DNA of 64,000 nt from Halorientalis sp. IM1011 (GTDB lineage Archaea; Halobacteriota; Halobacteria; Halobacteriales; Haloarculaceae): positions 248,001 to 312,000 of the forward strand of contig NZ_CP019067.1 in the NCBI RefSeq assembly GCF_001989615.1, in the 5' to 3' direction. Below the pieces are notes generated by a model that saw only the letters and a list, made by a program, of their open reading frames with translations, was not told the origin of the DNA and searched no databases. Made by a program: the position numbers and the translations under genes. Shown here piece after piece: positions 33,963 through 41,452 of this stretch (position 1 is the first letter of the stretch; every line of letters starts with the position of its first letter).

Positions 33963-35099
33963 ATGCATGAATCTCCGTCCGAGTACTCTCGACGGGAACT
34001 CTACGCGGAGGCCGATGCATTCGTTCGCGAGTGTTACTCCGAACTGGGCCGCGAATCCGAGATCGAAGACCGACTCGACGAGATCGCGGACGAGATCGAG
34101 CGGCGCGGCCACTACGACCACACGGCTTTCGAACTCGAACACGGCGCGAAGATGGCCTGGCGCAACAGCAACCGCTGCATCGGCCGCCTGTTCTGGCAGC
34201 AGTTAACCGTCGCCGATGCACGGGATTGCGAGACGGCCCGCGAGGTACACGAGGCCTGCTGTACCCACCTCGAACGGGCACGCAACGGCGGCAATATCAA
34301 ACCGTTGCTGACGGTATTCAAACCGATGATCGACGGGGACCGACAGGTCAGACTCTGGAACTACGAACTGTTGCGGTACGCCGGCTACCGGACGGCGGAC
34401 GGAATCGTCGGTGATCCCGACGAAGTCGAGTTGACCGAGTACTGCCAGTCCCGCGGGTGGGAAGGCGAGGGGACCCGATTCGACATCCTGCCCCACGTGG
34501 TGCAGATCAGAGATCAGGAACCGGAGCTGTTCGAGGTCCCCGAGTCGGCCGTCGGCGAGGTACGGCTTCGCCACCCCGAGTACGCGTGGTTCGAGGACCT
34601 CGGCCTCAGGTGGTACGACGTGCCCGTCGTCTCGAACATGCGTCTGGAGATCGGCGGCATCCACTACACGGCCGCGCCGTTCAGTGGGTGGTACGTGTCG
34701 ACGGAGATCGGGGCGCGAAACCTCGCGGACGAGGATCGCTACGATATGCTGCCGGCGGTCGCGGAGAAACTCGGACTCGATACGGGGGACGATCGGACCC
34801 TCTGGAAAGACGAGGCGCTGGTGGAGTTGAACCGTGCGGTGTTGCACTCCTTCGCGGAGGACGGCGTCCAGATCGTCGATCACCACACCGTGACCGACCA
34901 GTTCGAGCGGTTCGAGGAGAAGGAAGCGGCGGCCGGGCGGGAGGTGACCGGCGACCGGGCGTGGCTGTTACCGCCGATGAGTTCGGCAACGACACACGTG
35001 TTCGAGAACGACTACGATAACACCGTGAAGAAACCGAACTTCTTCTATCGGAATCCACCCGCGACGTTGAGTGAGCGGCGGGAATCGCTCGGGCGGTGA
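33963..35099 (+). CDS. nos: Nitric oxide synthase, oxygenase domain
   Basis: A 378-residue stand-alone NOS oxygenase, the size of bacterial NOS. The haem-thiolate Cys is C72 in AWRNSNRCIGRLFW. The substrate-binding Glu is E248 in SGWYVSTEIGARNLAD, and WYDVPVVSNMRLEIGGI and WLLPPMSSATTHVFENDY are highly conserved pocket and pterin-side segments. It should oxidise L-arginine to citrulline and NO with pterin and an external flavoprotein reductase; none is fused or adjacent. A TATA-like TGTAAATC at about 33932-33940 lies 27 bases upstream. The gene stops 86 bases before tRNA-Leu. Confidence 0.95.
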   Translation: MHESPSEYSRRELYAEADAFVRECYSELGRESEIEDRLDEIADEIERRGHYDHTAFELEHGAKMAWRNSNRCIGRLFWQQLTVADARDCETAREVHEACCTHLERARNGGNIKPLLTVFKPMIDGDRQVRLWNYELLRYAGYRTADGIVGDPDEVELTEYCQSRGWEGEGTRFDILPHVVQIRDQEPELFEVPESAVGEVRLRHPEYAWFEDLGLRWYDVPVVSNMRLEIGGIHYTAAPFSGWYVSTEIGARNLADEDRYDMLPAVAEKLGLDTGDDRTLWKDEALVELNRAVLHSFAEDGVQIVDHHTVTDQFERFEEKEAAAGREVTGDRAWLLPPMSSATTHVFENDYDNTVKKPNFFYRNPPATLSERRESLGR

Positions 35100-35184: not shown

Positions 35185-35269
35185 GCGCGGGTTGCCGAGC
35201 CAGGCCAAAGGCGTAGCGCTTAGGACGCTATCCCGTAGGGGTCCGCCGGTTCAAATCCGGTCCCGCGCA
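35185..35269 (+). tRNA. tRNA-Leu (anticodon UAG)
   Basis: An 85-base class II tRNA. Acceptor stem GCGCGGG (35185-35191) pairs with CCCGCGC (35262-35268), with discriminator A at 35269. The anticodon stem TAGCG/CGCTA encloses loop CTTAGGA, giving TAG. The variable arm TCCCGTAGGGG and T arm GGTTCAAATCC are normal. No intron; CCA is not encoded. Its last 22 bases are repeated exactly at 35367-35388 and 39522-39543. Confidence 0.95.
35248..35269 (+). repeat. tRNA 3'-end direct repeat, copy 1 (left attachment site)
   Basis: The last 22 bases of tRNA-Leu, from the T arm to the discriminator base. Identical over all 22 bases with copies 2 and 3. Confidence 0.9.
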
Positions 35270-35301
35270 TTCTGCTGCGAGCAAACCGCGAGCAGCAGAA
35301 T
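35269..35301. repeat. Perfect 10-bp inverted repeat after tRNA-Leu
   Basis: ATTCTGCTGC (35269-35278) and GCAGCAGAAT (35292-35301) around a 13-base loop. It overlaps the tRNA end by one base. It might affect 3' processing or termination of the tRNA transcript, or be a recombinase-binding arm. Confidence 0.6.
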
Positions 35302-35366
35302 CGCCAGCAGATTTGAACCCTGGAAGGAACGCGCAGCGAACGCAGTGAGCGAGCATTTCTTCCACT

Positions 35367-35388
35367 GGTTCAAATCCGGTCCCGCGCA
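35367..35388 (+). repeat. tRNA 3'-end direct repeat, copy 2 (internal)
   Basis: Exact 22-base copy of the tRNA end, about 119 bases downstream of copy 1. The DNA between holds no gene. It looks like the trace of an earlier insertion that was later reduced, or a secondary attachment site. Confidence 0.85.
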
Positions 35389-35432
35389 CTCCATTTGCGT
35401 ACGGATCACCGGACGTATCGACTATCACCTAC

Positions 35433-35440
35433 CTTTTATG
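35433..35440 (+). promoter_or_regulatory. TATA box of the restriction-modification gene
   Basis: CTTTTATG centred about 29 bases before the ATG at 35466; supports that start over an in-frame upstream codon at 35442 that almost touches the element. Confidence 0.55.
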
Positions 35441-35465
35441 ATTGCCGGCTATCTCAACCGGTATA

Positions 35466-38400
35466 ATGGCGGACACTTCCGATCTCTTCGATGCTCTCCG
35501 GAATATAGCGGAGCAGACAGACGAAGACATGAGCGAGCGGGACGTGGAAAATCTATTTCTCGAACGAGGGTTCTACGACGCGCTCGACTACGAAGGGACC
35601 GGAACGGATCTCCGGAGCGAATTCACGCTACCGGACGATCGGCGGCCTGACTACATCACGCTCGACACAAACGAAGCCGTCACTGCAGTCTACGAGTTCA
35701 AGACGACCGGACGGGATCTGCCCCCTCACGAGGAGCAACTGTTTCACTACATGGATTACCTGCGGGCGGAGTACGGGGTTCTGACCAACGGCGAGCAGCT
35801 GCGGGTCTATCAGCGCGGGGACAGTCGGCCGATGCTCACCGTCTCGATGGGGGCGGTTACGGAGAGTCAAGCCCGGGATCTCGTCAGCGCGCTCCGGAAG
35901 CGGGAATTCGATCTCACGGACCCCGAGGACGTGAACAGATTCCTCGAAGATCTCGACCCGATTCCGCTGGACTCGAAGGCCGAGCTCGGACAGGAACACT
36001 TCTTCGACACCTTTCGGCTCGAAGACGGCAGTCCGTTCGCAGACCTCGTCACCGGAATGGTTGACCTCCTACACGAACTCCGGGACGAGCAGGAAGAGAA
36101 GTTCGTGAAAGGGGCGTACGACTTCTGGGAGGCAACCTATGCCGACGAGCCGGACGAGGTCCCTAGCTCTTGGGAGCCGTTCGTCGACGGCAAGCAGTCC
36201 CTCCGGGACTTCATGTTCTGTCTGGAGAGCGGACACGCGCTCCTCGCCCGGCTCCTGCTGGCGAAGGCGACCGAGGATCACGACTTCTTCGCCGGCACCG
36301 GCTACGAGGGAATGGGGAGCTACTTCCGCGGGTTGCAGGGCTTTGACGACTCTATCAATCTCGACGCCTTCCCCGTGGCTGCCGACAACATGATCGACGA
36401 TATGCAGGATCAGCTCGTCGAAGGACTCTTTCAGGACGACATCTTCATCTGGTGGACCGACGGCTACGCCGAACAACTCTCGCGAGGGCACGATACGGGG
36501 CCGAGCCAGTTCGAGGCGGTTGCCGAGGGAACCGGAAGCGTCGAGCGAGTGAGCGATGCCACGCGGGACCGCTTCAGCCGCGCCGTGGCCGAGGTGTTCT
36601 TCAACGTCCTTCGATTCGACTTCGAGGACGTTGAAGGCGACCTGCTCGGTGATCTCTACCAGCGATACTTCGACCCAGAGACTCGCAAGGCCCTCGGGGA
36701 GTTCTACACGCCGCAACCAGTGATCGACTACATCATGGACGGCGTCGGGTACGAGCGCGGCGTCTCGAACGAGCGCCTCATCGACCCGTCGTGTGGCTCC
36801 GGGACGTTCCTCGTCGAGGCTGTCGAGCGGTACATCGCGGACGTGGAGAACTACGAGGACGACCCAGACTGGGAGGAACACCTGCGGGACCTCTGTACCC
36901 GGCCGCGTATCGTCGGGCTGGACATCCACCCGTTCGCCGTGTTGATGGCCCAGATCCGGTTCGTGGTCGCCATCCTGCCGGCGTATCGGGAGGCCAAGAC
37001 CCAGAACACGGATTTCACACTGCGACGGCTTCCTATCTACCGGACCGATACGCTCCGCAACGAGCGGGAACTGACCGGCGCGGACCTCGGCGACGACGGC
37101 ACGCGACAGATGACCTTCGACGCGATGACTGAGGACGAGCAGGACGTACGGATTCCCGTCCCGCTTCCGGTCGAGGTGGACGAAGACGAGGCCGCCGAGA
37201 CGGAGGACGGCTTCCTCGTGCGTCGCGTGCGGATGCCGCTGTTCGACACGATCCAGTTAGAGACCGGCGTGAACAACTTCGGTGAGTATTTCGCCGCGCT
37301 GCAGGGCGTCCTCGACACCGTCAAGGACCACATGGCACTGGCCGAGGAGTTCGGCGGCGACTTCGACTGGGAGTACAAGAGCGGGCTGGAAGAACGAATC
37401 AACCAGCACACGTCACAGGAGTATTCGGGTGTCGAGGAGTTCTTCGCCCCCTACGTGGACGACATGCTGGAGAACGTCCGCTATCTCAAGGAGGAACACA
37501 ACGACGGACGGCTGTTCAAGATGTTCGAGGACACCGTCCTAGCCCTCGTCGTAAAGAACTACATGACCTATGATTACGTCGTTGGGAATCCGCCGTACGT
37601 CCGCACCCAAAATCTCCCAGATAGACAGAAAGAGGTGCTGGACCGATTGTATGAATCCACAACTGGAAACTACGACATTTACTGTCCGTTCTACGAGCGG
37701 GGACTTGATTGGCTCCGTGAAGGAACCGGAAAACTCGGATTCATCACCCCGAACCAGTTCATGGTGACTGATTACGGTGAGGGTCTGCGGCGTGTCTTGC
37801 TTGAGAGAGCGCGCATCGAGGAGGTCTATGATTTCCGTGACTCCGGCGTGTTTGAAGACGCAAAGAACTACCCTGCTATCGTCATGCTGCAAGACGAGCC
37901 GGACCCAGATGAGCGTGAAGCGAGCGAAATCCGGTGTGTTAGAGTCAAGGCTGATACGAAAGCGCCAACGAACCGAGACCTCGATACTGCGGTCATCAAG
38001 GCTGTCCGCGAGCATCGTGGTGAGCCGGGATACGAGGACGAATTGATTAACGTGTTTGACTATCCGCAGGGGGATTTGGATGAGGGGTATTGGTCGTTGA
38101 TGCCGCCCGAGGAGTTGGAAATCATCCACAAGATGGAGGCCGCAAGTGATGTGACCGTAGGCGATGTCACGGACTCTGTGTTTGCTGGAACTCAAACTAG
38201 CGCGAACAACGTTTTTCTGGTGACGCCTGTTGATGCCGACCGCATCTCTGCTAACGATACTGGCGATACAGTGACAGTGGTACCGAAAGGTGAGTCTCGT
38301 GAGTACGAGGTCGAGACGGATCCGCTCCGCCCATGGTTACAGGGCCGTGACATTAATCGCTGGCGTGGGGATTGGTCAGGCGAGCACGCTATCGTGCCAT

Positions 38401-39380
38401 ATGTTCTTGAGGAGGATGACGAAGGCAATCTAACGTCGAACCTCATCGAACAAGAACGGTTGGAGAGTGAGTTACCACTAACGTGGGAGTACCTGACAGA
38501 GCATCGAGACACCTTAGAGAGTCGTGAAGGTGGCCGGTTCGAGGGCCGTGACGACTGGTACGGGTTCGGATACCCCAAGAGCATGACCCGGTTTGAAGAC
38601 CCGAAACTCATCTGCTCTGAAATCGCGGCAGAAGCGACGTTCATGCTAGATGACGTTGGAACGTGGTATTTCAAAGCCGCTTACGGTGTCCAACTTGAAG
38701 ATGATTGGAAAGATAGGACAGATACGTTTGCCGCCCTCCTGAACTCTAACGCGCTCGACTTCTACCTAAAGCATTACACAACGCTGAAAGTGGATGGATA
38801 CTACAAATACACCACCAACTACCTGACTCCGCTACCGATTACGTGGGGTGCCGATGAGGACCGCTCCGAACTTCGAGATTATCTGTCAGAGATTACGACA
38901 GCCTTAGATACAGAGAGTAAGACCGAGCGGTTCCCCGAAGCGTATCTGGGTGAGCACGACGGCGAAATGGACTACATCACCTATGAGTGGCAAACTCGCC
39001 GCTATCCGGTAAGTGCGGAAGTACAGGCCGACGTGGGAGGAGAGTACACAGTACAGGCGGGCCGTTCGGACGTAATTACCGATGCGGCAATGTATTCCGA
39101 TGACGAGGAAGCGAGAAAACGGCGGGCTATGTACGTTCAAGAGGCTGTCAACGGGCGGAACGTGAAAAGCGGTGAGGAGACTACAATCCCGATTCCTCGT
39201 AGCGATGCCGGTGTAGAGACACTGTTGGAGGCACTACGGTCCGATGAGGCTACCGTGTCCGAGACTGATGTTGATGAATTGGAAGCCTTGGTTAACGATG
39301 TGGTGTACGAGATGTTCGGCATCACTCCCGAGGAGCAAGACGTGATTGAAGATTACTTGGAGACGTTCCGGGTGTACTGA
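35466..39380 (+). CDS. Fused type II (IIG-like) restriction endonuclease-methyltransferase
   Basis: A 1,304-residue enzyme. An N-terminal nuclease core of PD-(D/E)xK type is suggested by RPDYI (D62) and VYEFK (E77, K79). The helical region is followed by an N6-adenine methyltransferase: GEFYTPQPVIDYIMD (about 411-425), SAM motif DPSCGSGTF (about 440) and catalytic NPPY (708-711). The remaining 590 residues resemble a TaqI/Eco57I-type specificity region. One polypeptide would therefore cut, methylate and recognise DNA. Codons after about 37560 are visibly AT-richer than the first two thirds, suggesting a replaced recognition part. It is the only gene in the tRNA-Leu cassette. The reading frame is intact. 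Confidence 0.88.
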   Translation: MADTSDLFDALRNIAEQTDEDMSERDVENLFLERGFYDALDYEGTGTDLRSEFTLPDDRRPDYITLDTNEAVTAVYEFKTTGRDLPPHEEQLFHYMDYLRAEYGVLTNGEQLRVYQRGDSRPMLTVSMGAVTESQARDLVSALRKREFDLTDPEDVNRFLEDLDPIPLDSKAELGQEHFFDTFRLEDGSPFADLVTGMVDLLHELRDEQEEKFVKGAYDFWEATYADEPDEVPSSWEPFVDGKQSLRDFMFCLESGHALLARLLLAKATEDHDFFAGTGYEGMGSYFRGLQGFDDSINLDAFPVAADNMIDDMQDQLVEGLFQDDIFIWWTDGYAEQLSRGHDTGPSQFEAVAEGTGSVERVSDATRDRFSRAVAEVFFNVLRFDFEDVEGDLLGDLYQRYFDPETRKALGEFYTPQPVIDYIMDGVGYERGVSNERLIDPSCGSGTFLVEAVERYIADVENYEDDPDWEEHLRDLCTRPRIVGLDIHPFAVLMAQIRFVVAILPAYREAKTQNTDFTLRRLPIYRTDTLRNERELTGADLGDDGTRQMTFDAMTEDEQDVRIPVPLPVEVDEDEAAETEDGFLVRRVRMPLFDTIQLETGVNNFGEYFAALQGVLDTVKDHMALAEEFGGDFDWEYKSGLEERINQHTSQEYSGVEEFFAPYVDDMLENVRYLKEEHNDGRLFKMFEDTVLALVVKNYMTYDYVVGNPPYVRTQNLPDRQKEVLDRLYESTTGNYDIYCPFYERGLDWLREGTGKLGFITPNQFMVTDYGEGLRRVLLERARIEEVYDFRDSGVFEDAKNYPAIVMLQDEPDPDEREASEIRCVRVKADTKAPTNRDLDTAVIKAVREHRGEPGYEDELINVFDYPQGDLDEGYWSLMPPEELEIIHKMEAASDVTVGDVTDSVFAGTQTSANNVFLVTPVDADRISANDTGDTVTVVPKGESREYEVETDPLRPWLQGRDINRWRGDWSGEHAIVPYVLEEDDEGNLTSNLIEQERLESELPLTWEYLTEHRDTLESREGGRFEGRDDWYGFGYPKSMTRFEDPKLICSEIAAEATFMLDDVGTWYFKAAYGVQLEDDWKDRTDTFAALLNSNALDFYLKHYTTLKVDGYYKYTTNYLTPLPITWGADEDRSELRDYLSEITTALDTESKTERFPEAYLGEHDGEMDYITYEWQTRRYPVSAEVQADVGGEYTVQAGRSDVITDAAMYSDDEEARKRRAMYVQEAVNGRNVKSGEETTIPIPRSDAGVETLLEALRSDEATVSETDVDELEALVNDVVYEMFGITPEEQDVIEDYLETFRVY

Positions 39381-39494
39381 GGTACTCCGCCCGACTCATT
39401 GGAAATTGGCCGCGGGTTACTCCCCTAAGACAGAATTACTTTTACTGAATTGAGATATTTTACTCAGGTGTCATGAAGATTGATTACAGTCGAA

Positions 39495-39543
39495 TTTAGG
39501 GCCTGTCCCATGGGGGCTGCCGGTTCAAATCCGGTCCCGCGCA
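39495..39543 (+). other. Diverged 3' half of tRNA-Leu at right cassette border
   Basis: Upstream of copy 3 of the repeat the likeness to tRNA-Leu goes on: TTTAGG fits the anticodon loop CTTAGG and GTCCCATGGGGG fits the variable arm TCCCGTAGGGG, with small gaps. So the right border holds a whole tRNA 3' half from the anticodon loop, not only the T arm. No 5' half is present, so it is not an active tRNA gene. Confidence 0.65.
39522..39543 (+). repeat. tRNA 3'-end direct repeat, copy 3 (right attachment site)
   Basis: Exact 22-base copy of the tRNA-Leu end, 13 bases before the end of the next chromosomal gene. Marks the right limit of the cassette. Confidence 0.9.
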
Positions 39544-39556
39544 CATAGCCGAGCAT

Positions 39557-41452
39557 TCACACCCCGCCCTCCCAGTCGGGGACCGGTCGATACCCACACT
39601 CGCCGGTCCGCTCCAGGATCACCACGTACTGCGTGGGGCCCATCTCCTGTTCGTCGCCGTAGAAGTCGTTTCGGGGGGTGATGCCCATCGGGATGATGTC
39701 GACGAGCGAGCCGGGCTCGGGGCGCTGGGGGACGAAGTTCGGCGGGCGCTGGCCGAACTCGGCTTCGATCTCGTAGGCGTACTCGCCGTCGAGCAGGGCG
39801 CGAATGTATTCGGCGCGGGCCTCGACGCCCTCGTCAACGTCGCGTTCGCGCTGGTCGACGGGGATGTCGCGGAGGTAGAGCAGGTCCTGATAGGAGAGCT
39901 GAATGTACTGGGGGCAGGGGACGACGTCGTCCGGTTCGGTCGCGCCCCAGTGGTGGGAGATGTTCATGTCGTGGGGGAGGGCGGTCTCGTCGAAGGCCTG
40001 GTGATAGGTCTCGACGGTGGCGTTGGCCGGGGCGTGCTCGTCGAGCCAGTCGGTGGCTTCGGCGCGGGGGGTGGCGGCGTAGCCGGCGACGCCGGTCGCG
40101 GCGAAGGCCGTCGTCGAGAGTAGCAGGGCGGCGACGAGCGGGCGGGCGAGACCGGGGCGGCGCTCGTAGAGGGTGACGAGGCCCGCGGCGAGCAACAGGA
40201 TGGCGAGCGGGAAGGTGGGGAGCAGGTGGTGGGGGCGGAAGTCGTGCCAGGTGGTGAGCACGAGCAGGAAGATCACGAGCGCGGCGGCGACGACGGTGCC
40301 GGCGTCGCGGTCGCCGCTGGATCGGAGGCTGGCGATGCCGGCGGGGACGCCCACGAGGAGCGCGACGGTGAGCGGGAGGCCGAAGGCGGCGAAGTACGCG
40401 CGGAGGAACCACCACCACGACGGCGCGGTCGGGCCGACGACGACGGAGGCGCGGTTGGCGGCCTGGCCGAACCAGCGCTGCCAGACGGACGCGAAGTCAC
40501 CGACGAGCAGGCTGGGGAAGCCGAGGGCGATCCCGAGCGCGCCGATCGCCATCCCGCCGACGAGGAGTTTCGGTCGCCAGTAGGCGGCCGGGACGACGGT
40601 GTCGTCCGCGCGGATGCGCGCCAGAAAGCCCAGTCCGCTCCCGAGTGGCGTCGAGCGCTGGCCGTCGGCCGACCCCGCGCGTTCGGTGCGGCGGACCCGC
40701 AGCAGGTAGCCAAGGCCGATGACGGGGACGATCAGGCCGGCGGTGAGCTTGAACGCGACGGCGAAGCCCCCGAGCGCACAGGACGCGAAGAACAGTTTCC
40801 GGGAGCCGGTCTGGACGTACCGGACGAGCAGGTACAGCGAGCACAGGAGGGTGAAGAGCGCGGGCACGTCCTCGCCGGCCTCGTGGGCGAGCATGAGGAG
40901 GCCGAACGTGACCGCGAGCAGGAAGGCCGCGAGGCGACCGGTCGGGCGGTCACGCATCGCGACGCCGAGGCGGTAGGTGACGTAGACCGACCCGACGGCG
41001 AGACAGACGTTGGCGAAGCGGCCGGCGGCGATGACCCCGGACCAGATCCAGGCCGGCGTCTCGTGCCAGACCTGCCAGTGGCCGTACTCCCATCCCGTGG
41101 GATAGATGTCCGCTATCGCGCCGCCGTCGCCGACGAGAACGGCCAGGACGACGACGGGGAGGATGGCGACGGCGTAGAGGTAGAACGTGGCACCGAAGGG
41201 TGCACGGCTCCAGGTGACGCCCTCCCGGAGTGATTCGAGGCTGGGGTCGTCGAGGACTGCGCTGTAGGTAACCAGCGGGTCGAGCAGTCGGTCACGTTCG
41301 TCGTAGGTGGCGAAGTTGGGGACACGGTGCCAGAACCAGAAGGCGGCCAGTGCGAACGCGCCGAGGAGGATCGGAGCGAGGTAGGGGTCGTGCCGCAGAT
41401 CCCGGCGGATCTGCCGTTTGATACGCACGACAGTGTTCGTCACTGTTGACAT
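39557..41452 (-). CDS. GT-C membrane glycosyltransferase, paralogue of 4413-6206
   Basis: A 631-residue membrane protein with the same plan as the gene at 4413-6206: FATYDERDR after the first helix (catalytic Asp region), about ten helices, a soluble C-terminal domain and a CGYRPVPDW tail. Shared landmarks include FWFWHR.PNFAT, the segment near PSWWWFLRAYF, and WHDFR.HHLLPTFP. It ends 13 bases inside the chromosome from the right att copy. Donor probably dolichyl-phosphate sugar; acceptor unknown. Confidence 0.8.
   Translation of the reverse strand: MSTVTNTVVRIKRQIRRDLRHDPYLAPILLGAFALAAFWFWHRVPNFATYDERDRLLDPLVTYSAVLDDPSLESLREGVTWSRAPFGATFYLYAVAILPVVVLAVLVGDGGAIADIYPTGWEYGHWQVWHETPAWIWSGVIAAGRFANVCLAVGSVYVTYRLGVAMRDRPTGRLAAFLLAVTFGLLMLAHEAGEDVPALFTLLCSLYLLVRYVQTGSRKLFFASCALGGFAVAFKLTAGLIVPVIGLGYLLRVRRTERAGSADGQRSTPLGSGLGFLARIRADDTVVPAAYWRPKLLVGGMAIGALGIALGFPSLLVGDFASVWQRWFGQAANRASVVVGPTAPSWWWFLRAYFAAFGLPLTVALLVGVPAGIASLRSSGDRDAGTVVAAALVIFLLVLTTWHDFRPHHLLPTFPLAILLLAAGLVTLYERRPGLARPLVAALLLSTTAFAATGVAGYAATPRAEATDWLDEHAPANATVETYHQAFDETALPHDMNISHHWGATEPDDVVPCPQYIQLSYQDLLYLRDIPVDQRERDVDEGVEARAEYIRALLDGEYAYEIEAEFGQRPPNFVPQRPEPGSLVDIIPMGITPRNDFYGDEQEMGPTQYVVILERTGECGYRPVPDWEGGV

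Follow-up and report, generated by a model that had tools for sequence, protein, structure and literature searches.

A 4155-bp segment behind the tRNA-Leu(UAG) gene of Halorientalis sp. IM1011 is probably a remnant of an ordinary tRNA-integrating element, resembling the CIMEs (cis-mobilizable elements), that has lost its integrase and retained its restriction-modification (RM) gene. The segment lies in a window of 64,000 nucleotides (contig NZ_CP019067.1, positions 248,001 to 312,000), which is the whole stretch of DNA analyzed, and its features are collected in Table 1. A sequence-only reading had offered two accounts, a minimal defence cassette mobilised in trans by the integrase of another element and a remnant without its integrase; it is the second that finds the greater support here.

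Table 1. Features of the tRNA-Leu(UAG) locus, in coordinates of the window.
Feature	Position	Strand	Basis or remark
tRNA-Leu(UAG), intact; putative integration target	35185..35269	+	ARAGORN; Rfam RF00005, 48.3 bits
119-bp double-hairpin unit closed by a copy of the tRNA 3' end	35270..35388	+	fold z -4.76; compensatory changes; copies throughout the family
Middle exact copy of the tRNA 3' end; left cassette boundary	35367..35388	+	repeat search, extension comparison
Integrase-less one-gene cassette, 4155 bp	35389..39543	+	missing from congener G005
Possible archaeal TATA element TACCTTTTAT, ~30 bp upstream of the ATG	35430..35439	+	read from the sequence
Type IIG-like RM protein P0001, 1304 aa	35466..39380	+	ATG 35466, stop 39380; domains; purifying selection
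Predicted PD-(D/E)XK nuclease motif, PD 61-62 and EFK 77-79	35640..35711	+	invariant in 44 homologs
AdoMet-binding motif I, IDPSCGSGTFL	36780..36812	+	homolog alignment
N6-adenine methyltransferase catalytic motif IV, NPPY	37581..37604	+	invariant in homologs covering it
Distal attR-like repeat, tRNA-Leu anticodon loop to 3' end	39494..39543	+	last 25 nt exact (39519-39543)
PMT-family glycosyltransferase, host flank	39557..41452	-	abuts the tRNA units of G005 and G007, whose sites are empty

The boundaries of the cassette are marked by copies of the tRNA 3' end. An intact tRNA-Leu(UAG) with one exact 22-nt copy of its 3' end further downstream had been proposed by the sequence-only reading; ARAGORN confirmed the tRNA and the distal copy is indeed exact, but the count of two had to be corrected. 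The terminal 22-mer GGTTCAAATCCGGTCCCGCGCA occurs exactly at 35248-35269 within the tRNA, at 35367-35388, which had been overlooked, and at 39522-39543, with 0 occurrences expected in shuffled sequence; an exact match was not found in viral contigs. In an anchored alignment, the upstream extension of the distal copy was equalled by only 3 of 3000 random positions, whereas that of the middle copy was equalled by 1025 of 3000, so that its similarity stops there. Compared with its own tRNA, the distal copy has 25 nt exact and 30 of 32 positions matching, and compared with the tRNA-Leu(UAG) of other genomes the similarity extends over about 51 nt at 86% and reaches the anticodon loop. The left copy and the distal copy have only 22 nt in common. 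The distal copy thus appears to be a tRNA 3' half, the footprint of tRNA-targeting integrases, and to differ in kind from the middle copy. Since the middle copy is the end of a hairpin unit and the distal copy a tRNA 3' half, the cassette proper is taken to span 35389-39543, with the distal copy as its attR-like end.

The middle copy is part of the 119-nt double-hairpin unit, where it forms the 3' arm of one of the hairpins; 11 of 29 predicted base pairs of the unit show compensatory changes among eight relatives. Units of like design stand behind tRNA-Leu(UAG) in congeners, and short-spaced copies (~90-210 bp) are common among the genomes of the host family that have an exact match. As judged from these comparisons, the unit is native to tRNA-Leu(UAG) in the host family and is not the repeat proper of the element. 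No matching family was found in Rfam. Two-hairpin units whose second hairpin derives from a tRNA 3'-end copy occur behind haloarchaeal tRNAs singly or in tandem, and similar repeats are also found behind tRNA-Leu(GAG), tRNA-Gly and tRNA-Thr. The rtT repeats of Escherichia coli tyrT are likewise tandem repeats with a tRNA 3' end. A role of the unit in trailer processing, in termination or as a decoy att site can only be guessed at.

As had been read from the sequence, the cassette contains one large gene. Its other ORFs overlap the P0001 gene or run antisense to it, and no integrase, replication or virion gene was found among the ORFs examined within 35389-39543. An autonomous tRNA-integrating element can be rejected on this ground, the integrases of the same genome lying elsewhere. 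P0001 matches the Pfam families Eco57I, N6_Mtase and TaqI_C, and its N terminus resembles HSDR_N just below the Pfam cut-off, a combination that supports the proposed fusion of endonuclease and methyltransferase, albeit weakly on the endonuclease side. Nuclease, N6-adenine methyltransferase and specificity domains, the domain set of Type IIG enzymes, are thus joined in a single chain. The PD...EFK, motif I and NPPY residues show little or no variation among the homologs covering them. Among solved structures, adenine methyltransferases and RM.BsaXI come closest to P0001. The dN/dS between homologs is about 0.03-0.06 (first 690 codons; dS near 1 for the pairs that include the window's gene), and the gene is intact, conserved and under purifying selection. 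P0001 is predicted to methylate target adenines and to cut unmethylated incoming DNA. An AT-rich element stands before several homologs at a position equivalent to that of the possible TATA element. Identity as the BREX protein PglX was rejected, with 151.6 bits against a curated cut-off of 400, and PglZ or BrxC partners are not among the immediate neighbours of P0001, which are a NO synthase oxygenase and the PMT glycosyltransferase. In G155, G217 and G268 the contig breaks within the homolog of P0001, around residues 695-742, and the identity of the G217 homolog to that of the window drops from 86% before this break to 60% after it, which suggests that the RM specificity domains are variable or recombining.

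The locus was compared in the seven congeners of the genome collection, all of which lack the P0001 gene (7/7). A search of relatives for the same tRNA locus, empty or with other cargo, had been recommended, and both states were found. In G005 the tRNA is followed by one unit and the PMT gene with nothing in between, which represents an empty site, and in G007 two units precede PMT. G004 carries a different RM gene after the unit (1381-aa ORF of the Eco57I/MmeI type; L032:9922-14028). In the window 13 bp separate the end of the distal copy from PMT, and the unit of the empty site has the same position relative to PMT; this would be the look of a precise insertion at the terminal tRNA copy of the unit. 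On the other side of the tRNA, a NO synthase oxygenase gene (33963-35099; Pfam NO_synthase, 542 bits) lies just 5' of it; the 20-kb tRNA-Leu loci of the seven congeners yielded no such gene, and in most of them the mannosyltransferase gene adjoins the tRNA instead.

Homologs of P0001 are present in 7 of 146 genomes of the family and 43 of 392 genomes of the order, and the best matches (84-85%) belong to other families. Host families are scattered on a tree built on the N-terminal 740 residues, with at least 23 changes of family, which indicates that the gene moves between lineages. The sequence-only reading had named a gene carried by all relatives, with a phylogeny matching the host, as the mark of an ancestral cassette; the seven congeners without the gene and the scattered families are the opposite picture.

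Around approximately 45 loci of P0001 homologs, tRNAs, tRNA-end repeats and integrases were sought. Complete elements of 8.2-14.7 kb that contain both the RM homolog and a tyrosine integrase were found in 11 genomes, bounded by a tRNA on one side and a repeat of the tRNA 3' end on the other. The targets are tRNA-Glu (G353, G228, G318), tRNA-His (G420), tRNA-Thr (G017, whose copy has 2 mismatches, and G224), tRNA-Ala (G349, G400, G035, G361) and tRNA-Val (G178). Two integrase families are represented. The first adjoins the tRNA, and in most cases 50-74 nt are common to the element ends; the second adjoins the distal copy, with 27-35 nt in common. At tRNA-Leu(UAG) itself, four genomes of the host family (G021, G030, G039, G041) carry elements of 5.8-49 kb with a first-type tyrosine integrase inside tRNA repeats, and Halobiforma haloterrestris (G417) has an integrase and an RM gene of the P0001 family behind this tRNA, on a contig that ends inside the RM gene. 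Longer relatives with an integrase inside the repeats, which according to the sequence-only reading would mark a degraded normal element, thus exist largely as envisaged, in the four host-family genomes and in the 11 elements at other tRNAs, with G417 as a further case up to the end of its contig. The host genome itself gives seven integrase-domain matches, three of them of the second family; none lies by tRNA-Leu and none is of the type found there. One very small integrase element is present in this genome at about 915.1-917.8 kb of C1 (L133:7076-9773), where a second-type integrase stands between tRNA-Tyr and, 2.6 kb further on, a repeat of the tRNA 3' end with 1 mismatch.

From these data, an element that carried a single-chain RM gene along with its tyrosine integrase probably entered the chromosome behind tRNA-Leu(UAG), presumably at the copy of the tRNA 3' end with which the hairpin unit of the host terminates. 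The insertion would have left the tRNA-3'-half repeat at the far end. The integrase and any other genes would have been lost later, in an order that can only be surmised, and what persisted would be a CIME-like remnant that retains the RM gene. The remnant reading is favored because the same place is empty in G005 and holds another RM gene in G004, because the distal copy takes the position next to PMT that the unit has in G005, and because RM homologs lie inside complete integrase elements in 11 genomes and integrase elements occupy tRNA-Leu(UAG) in five (with an RM gene in G417). It is further favored by the transition forms. The integrase-less homologs G217 and G352, both at tRNA-Leu(UAG), fall into one clade with the integrase-bearing G417 (support 100/99), and in G309 an 83-aa ORF corresponding to the C-terminal part of an integrase persists between tRNA-Gly and the RM gene, apparently a direct sign of integrase loss. 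At the locus of the window itself, a direct integrase-bearing ancestor was not found. Integrase-less forms are dispersed on the tree (at least 7 changes in the 22 rows that were classified). The low dN/dS is also counted for the remnant reading. A single clade of the six integrase-less forms at tRNA-Leu was rejected (p-AU 8e-6), and apart from the neighbours G217 and G352 no non-coding flanks common to integrase-less cassettes were found. The scatter and the unshared flanks make several independent losses more likely than the spread of one minimal cassette; at tRNA-Leu, such a spread can be rejected on the flanks and the same tree test. Several points count against the remnant reading: no integrase fragment was found in the cassette of the window; the left repeat appears to be a unit copy and not the tRNA, at which integrase-bearing elements start; and a clean loss of everything except the RM gene, several times over, is a demanding scenario.

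An alternative is that the RM gene and its two tRNA-like sites form a minimal cassette that is cut and pasted by the integrases of other elements. This is unlikely for the window, but several loci speak for it. At about 10 of 44 homolog loci the RM gene lies within 1 kb behind a co-oriented tRNA without an intact integrase (expected number 0.3; binomial P 3e-13, a value inflated by ignoring shared ancestry). A second, unrelated RM family of the Eco57I/MmeI type, that of G004, follows a co-oriented tRNA at a distance of 215-629 bp in 6 of 30 loci, with no tRNA in another orientation within the 1.5 kb examined. Loci of this kind, besides L032 (G004), are L155, L158, L162, L164, L167 and L171, and tRNA-Leu(UAG) is among the tRNAs. 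The gap to the tRNA in this family leaves no space for an integrase. In G121 (L056:7568-12674) an integrase-less RM cassette of 5.0 kb at tRNA-Gly is enclosed by 110-bp direct repeats of 99% identity, which cover the tRNA 3' half and the unit. Its insertion looks recent by this identity, and integrase-less forms may therefore insert recently, which counts against the remnant reading. Behind the tRNA-Leu(UAG) units of G033 (L144:1360-2709), small AT-rich ORFs form an integrase-less cassette of 1.3 kb that is closed by a tRNA-3'-half copy, the layout of the window with other cargo. The three second-family integrases of the host genome also count for this alternative. Against it stand the flanks, common to no two integrase-less cassettes save G217 and G352, the missing tRNA-Leu-type integrase in the host genome, none of whose integrases lies by tRNA-Leu, and a left site without the anticodon half, which elements with first-type integrases have in common at both ends.

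The exchange of RM genes by homologous recombination via the conserved tRNA and hairpin units, with no integrase acting at this locus, is a somewhat more doubtful explanation. Behind tRNA-Leu, integrase-less RM genes mostly follow one or more units and integrases stand directly at the tRNA; unrelated RM genes alternate at the same spot, and the G121 repeats include the unit. Yet the distal copy in the window is a tRNA 3' half and not a unit, as would be left by integration but not by recombination between units, and the identity of the repeats amounts to only 22-25 nt. The G121 and G033 cassettes, the second RM family and the RM genes placed after units would also fit insertion without an integrase of their own, in trans or by repeat recombination. 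Long residence of the gene, with a distal tRNA fragment that arose by chance or from a rearranged unit, is very improbable, for although unit copies behind tRNA-Leu(UAG) are common in the family, an ancestral gene is rejected by its absence from all seven congeners and by the empty site of G005, the distal copy reaches the anticodon loop and the nearest homologs (85%) sit in other families.

Known systems offer partial parallels to the remnant reading. The CIME definition was drawn from bacterial ICEs and IMEs (PMC5704250); as in CIMEs, att-type repeats (here candidate ones) mark both ends, integration and transfer genes are missing and a tRNA 3' end is adjacent, but the host is an archaeon, there is no tandem helper element and the left repeat is a copy in a tRNA-like unit rather than the tRNA. 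In Haloquadratum walsbyi, an integrase-less partial duplication of tRNA-Thr has been interpreted as what is left of a prophage or plasmid (PMC3119063). It shares with the window a haloarchaeal tRNA, a partial copy downstream (at 6.7 kb there) and no integrase nearby, but contains hypothetical genes and pseudogenes instead of a single intact RM gene. In H. walsbyi C23, a prophage at tRNA-Ala encodes RM enzymes, has an integrase at its right end and duplicates 22 nt of the tRNA (PMC3119063). This prophage has the layout of the tRNA-Ala elements that combine the P0001 RM family with the second integrase type; unlike the cassette, it is larger (19.7 kb), integrase-bearing and virus-like. CALINs, cassette arrays without integrases, are regarded as products of integrase loss and as mobilised by integrases acting in trans (PMC11389934); they too are cassettes without an integrase, but the window's boundaries are tRNA 3'-end sequences and no attC array was seen.

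Haloarchaeal RM systems are patchily distributed, with horizontal gain and loss, and have been proposed to be selfish (PMC6471742). The P0001 gene fits this picture of RM genes gained and lost horizontally in Halobacteria; a search of the text of PMC6471742 gave no mention of tRNAs or integrases, and the genomic vehicle is not addressed there. A limited literature search found no description of recurrent integrase-less RM cassettes behind tRNAs. Their repeated occurrence in two RM families is a more interesting pattern than the single locus. Single-gene Type IIG RM cassettes bounded by tRNA 3' ends might even be a recurrent integrase-less mobile class in Halobacteria, moved by integrases in trans or by unit recombination, though we consider this general claim rather unlikely.

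The coming and going of RM genes in Halobacteria is known, and their vehicle is unnamed in the literature searched. The present data link one RM family to tRNA-integrating elements, many integrase-less leftovers of which keep only the RM gene. Such leftovers are consistent with the view that RM genes persist after their carriers have gone, and concrete loci are now available for asking whether they can still move with borrowed integrases.
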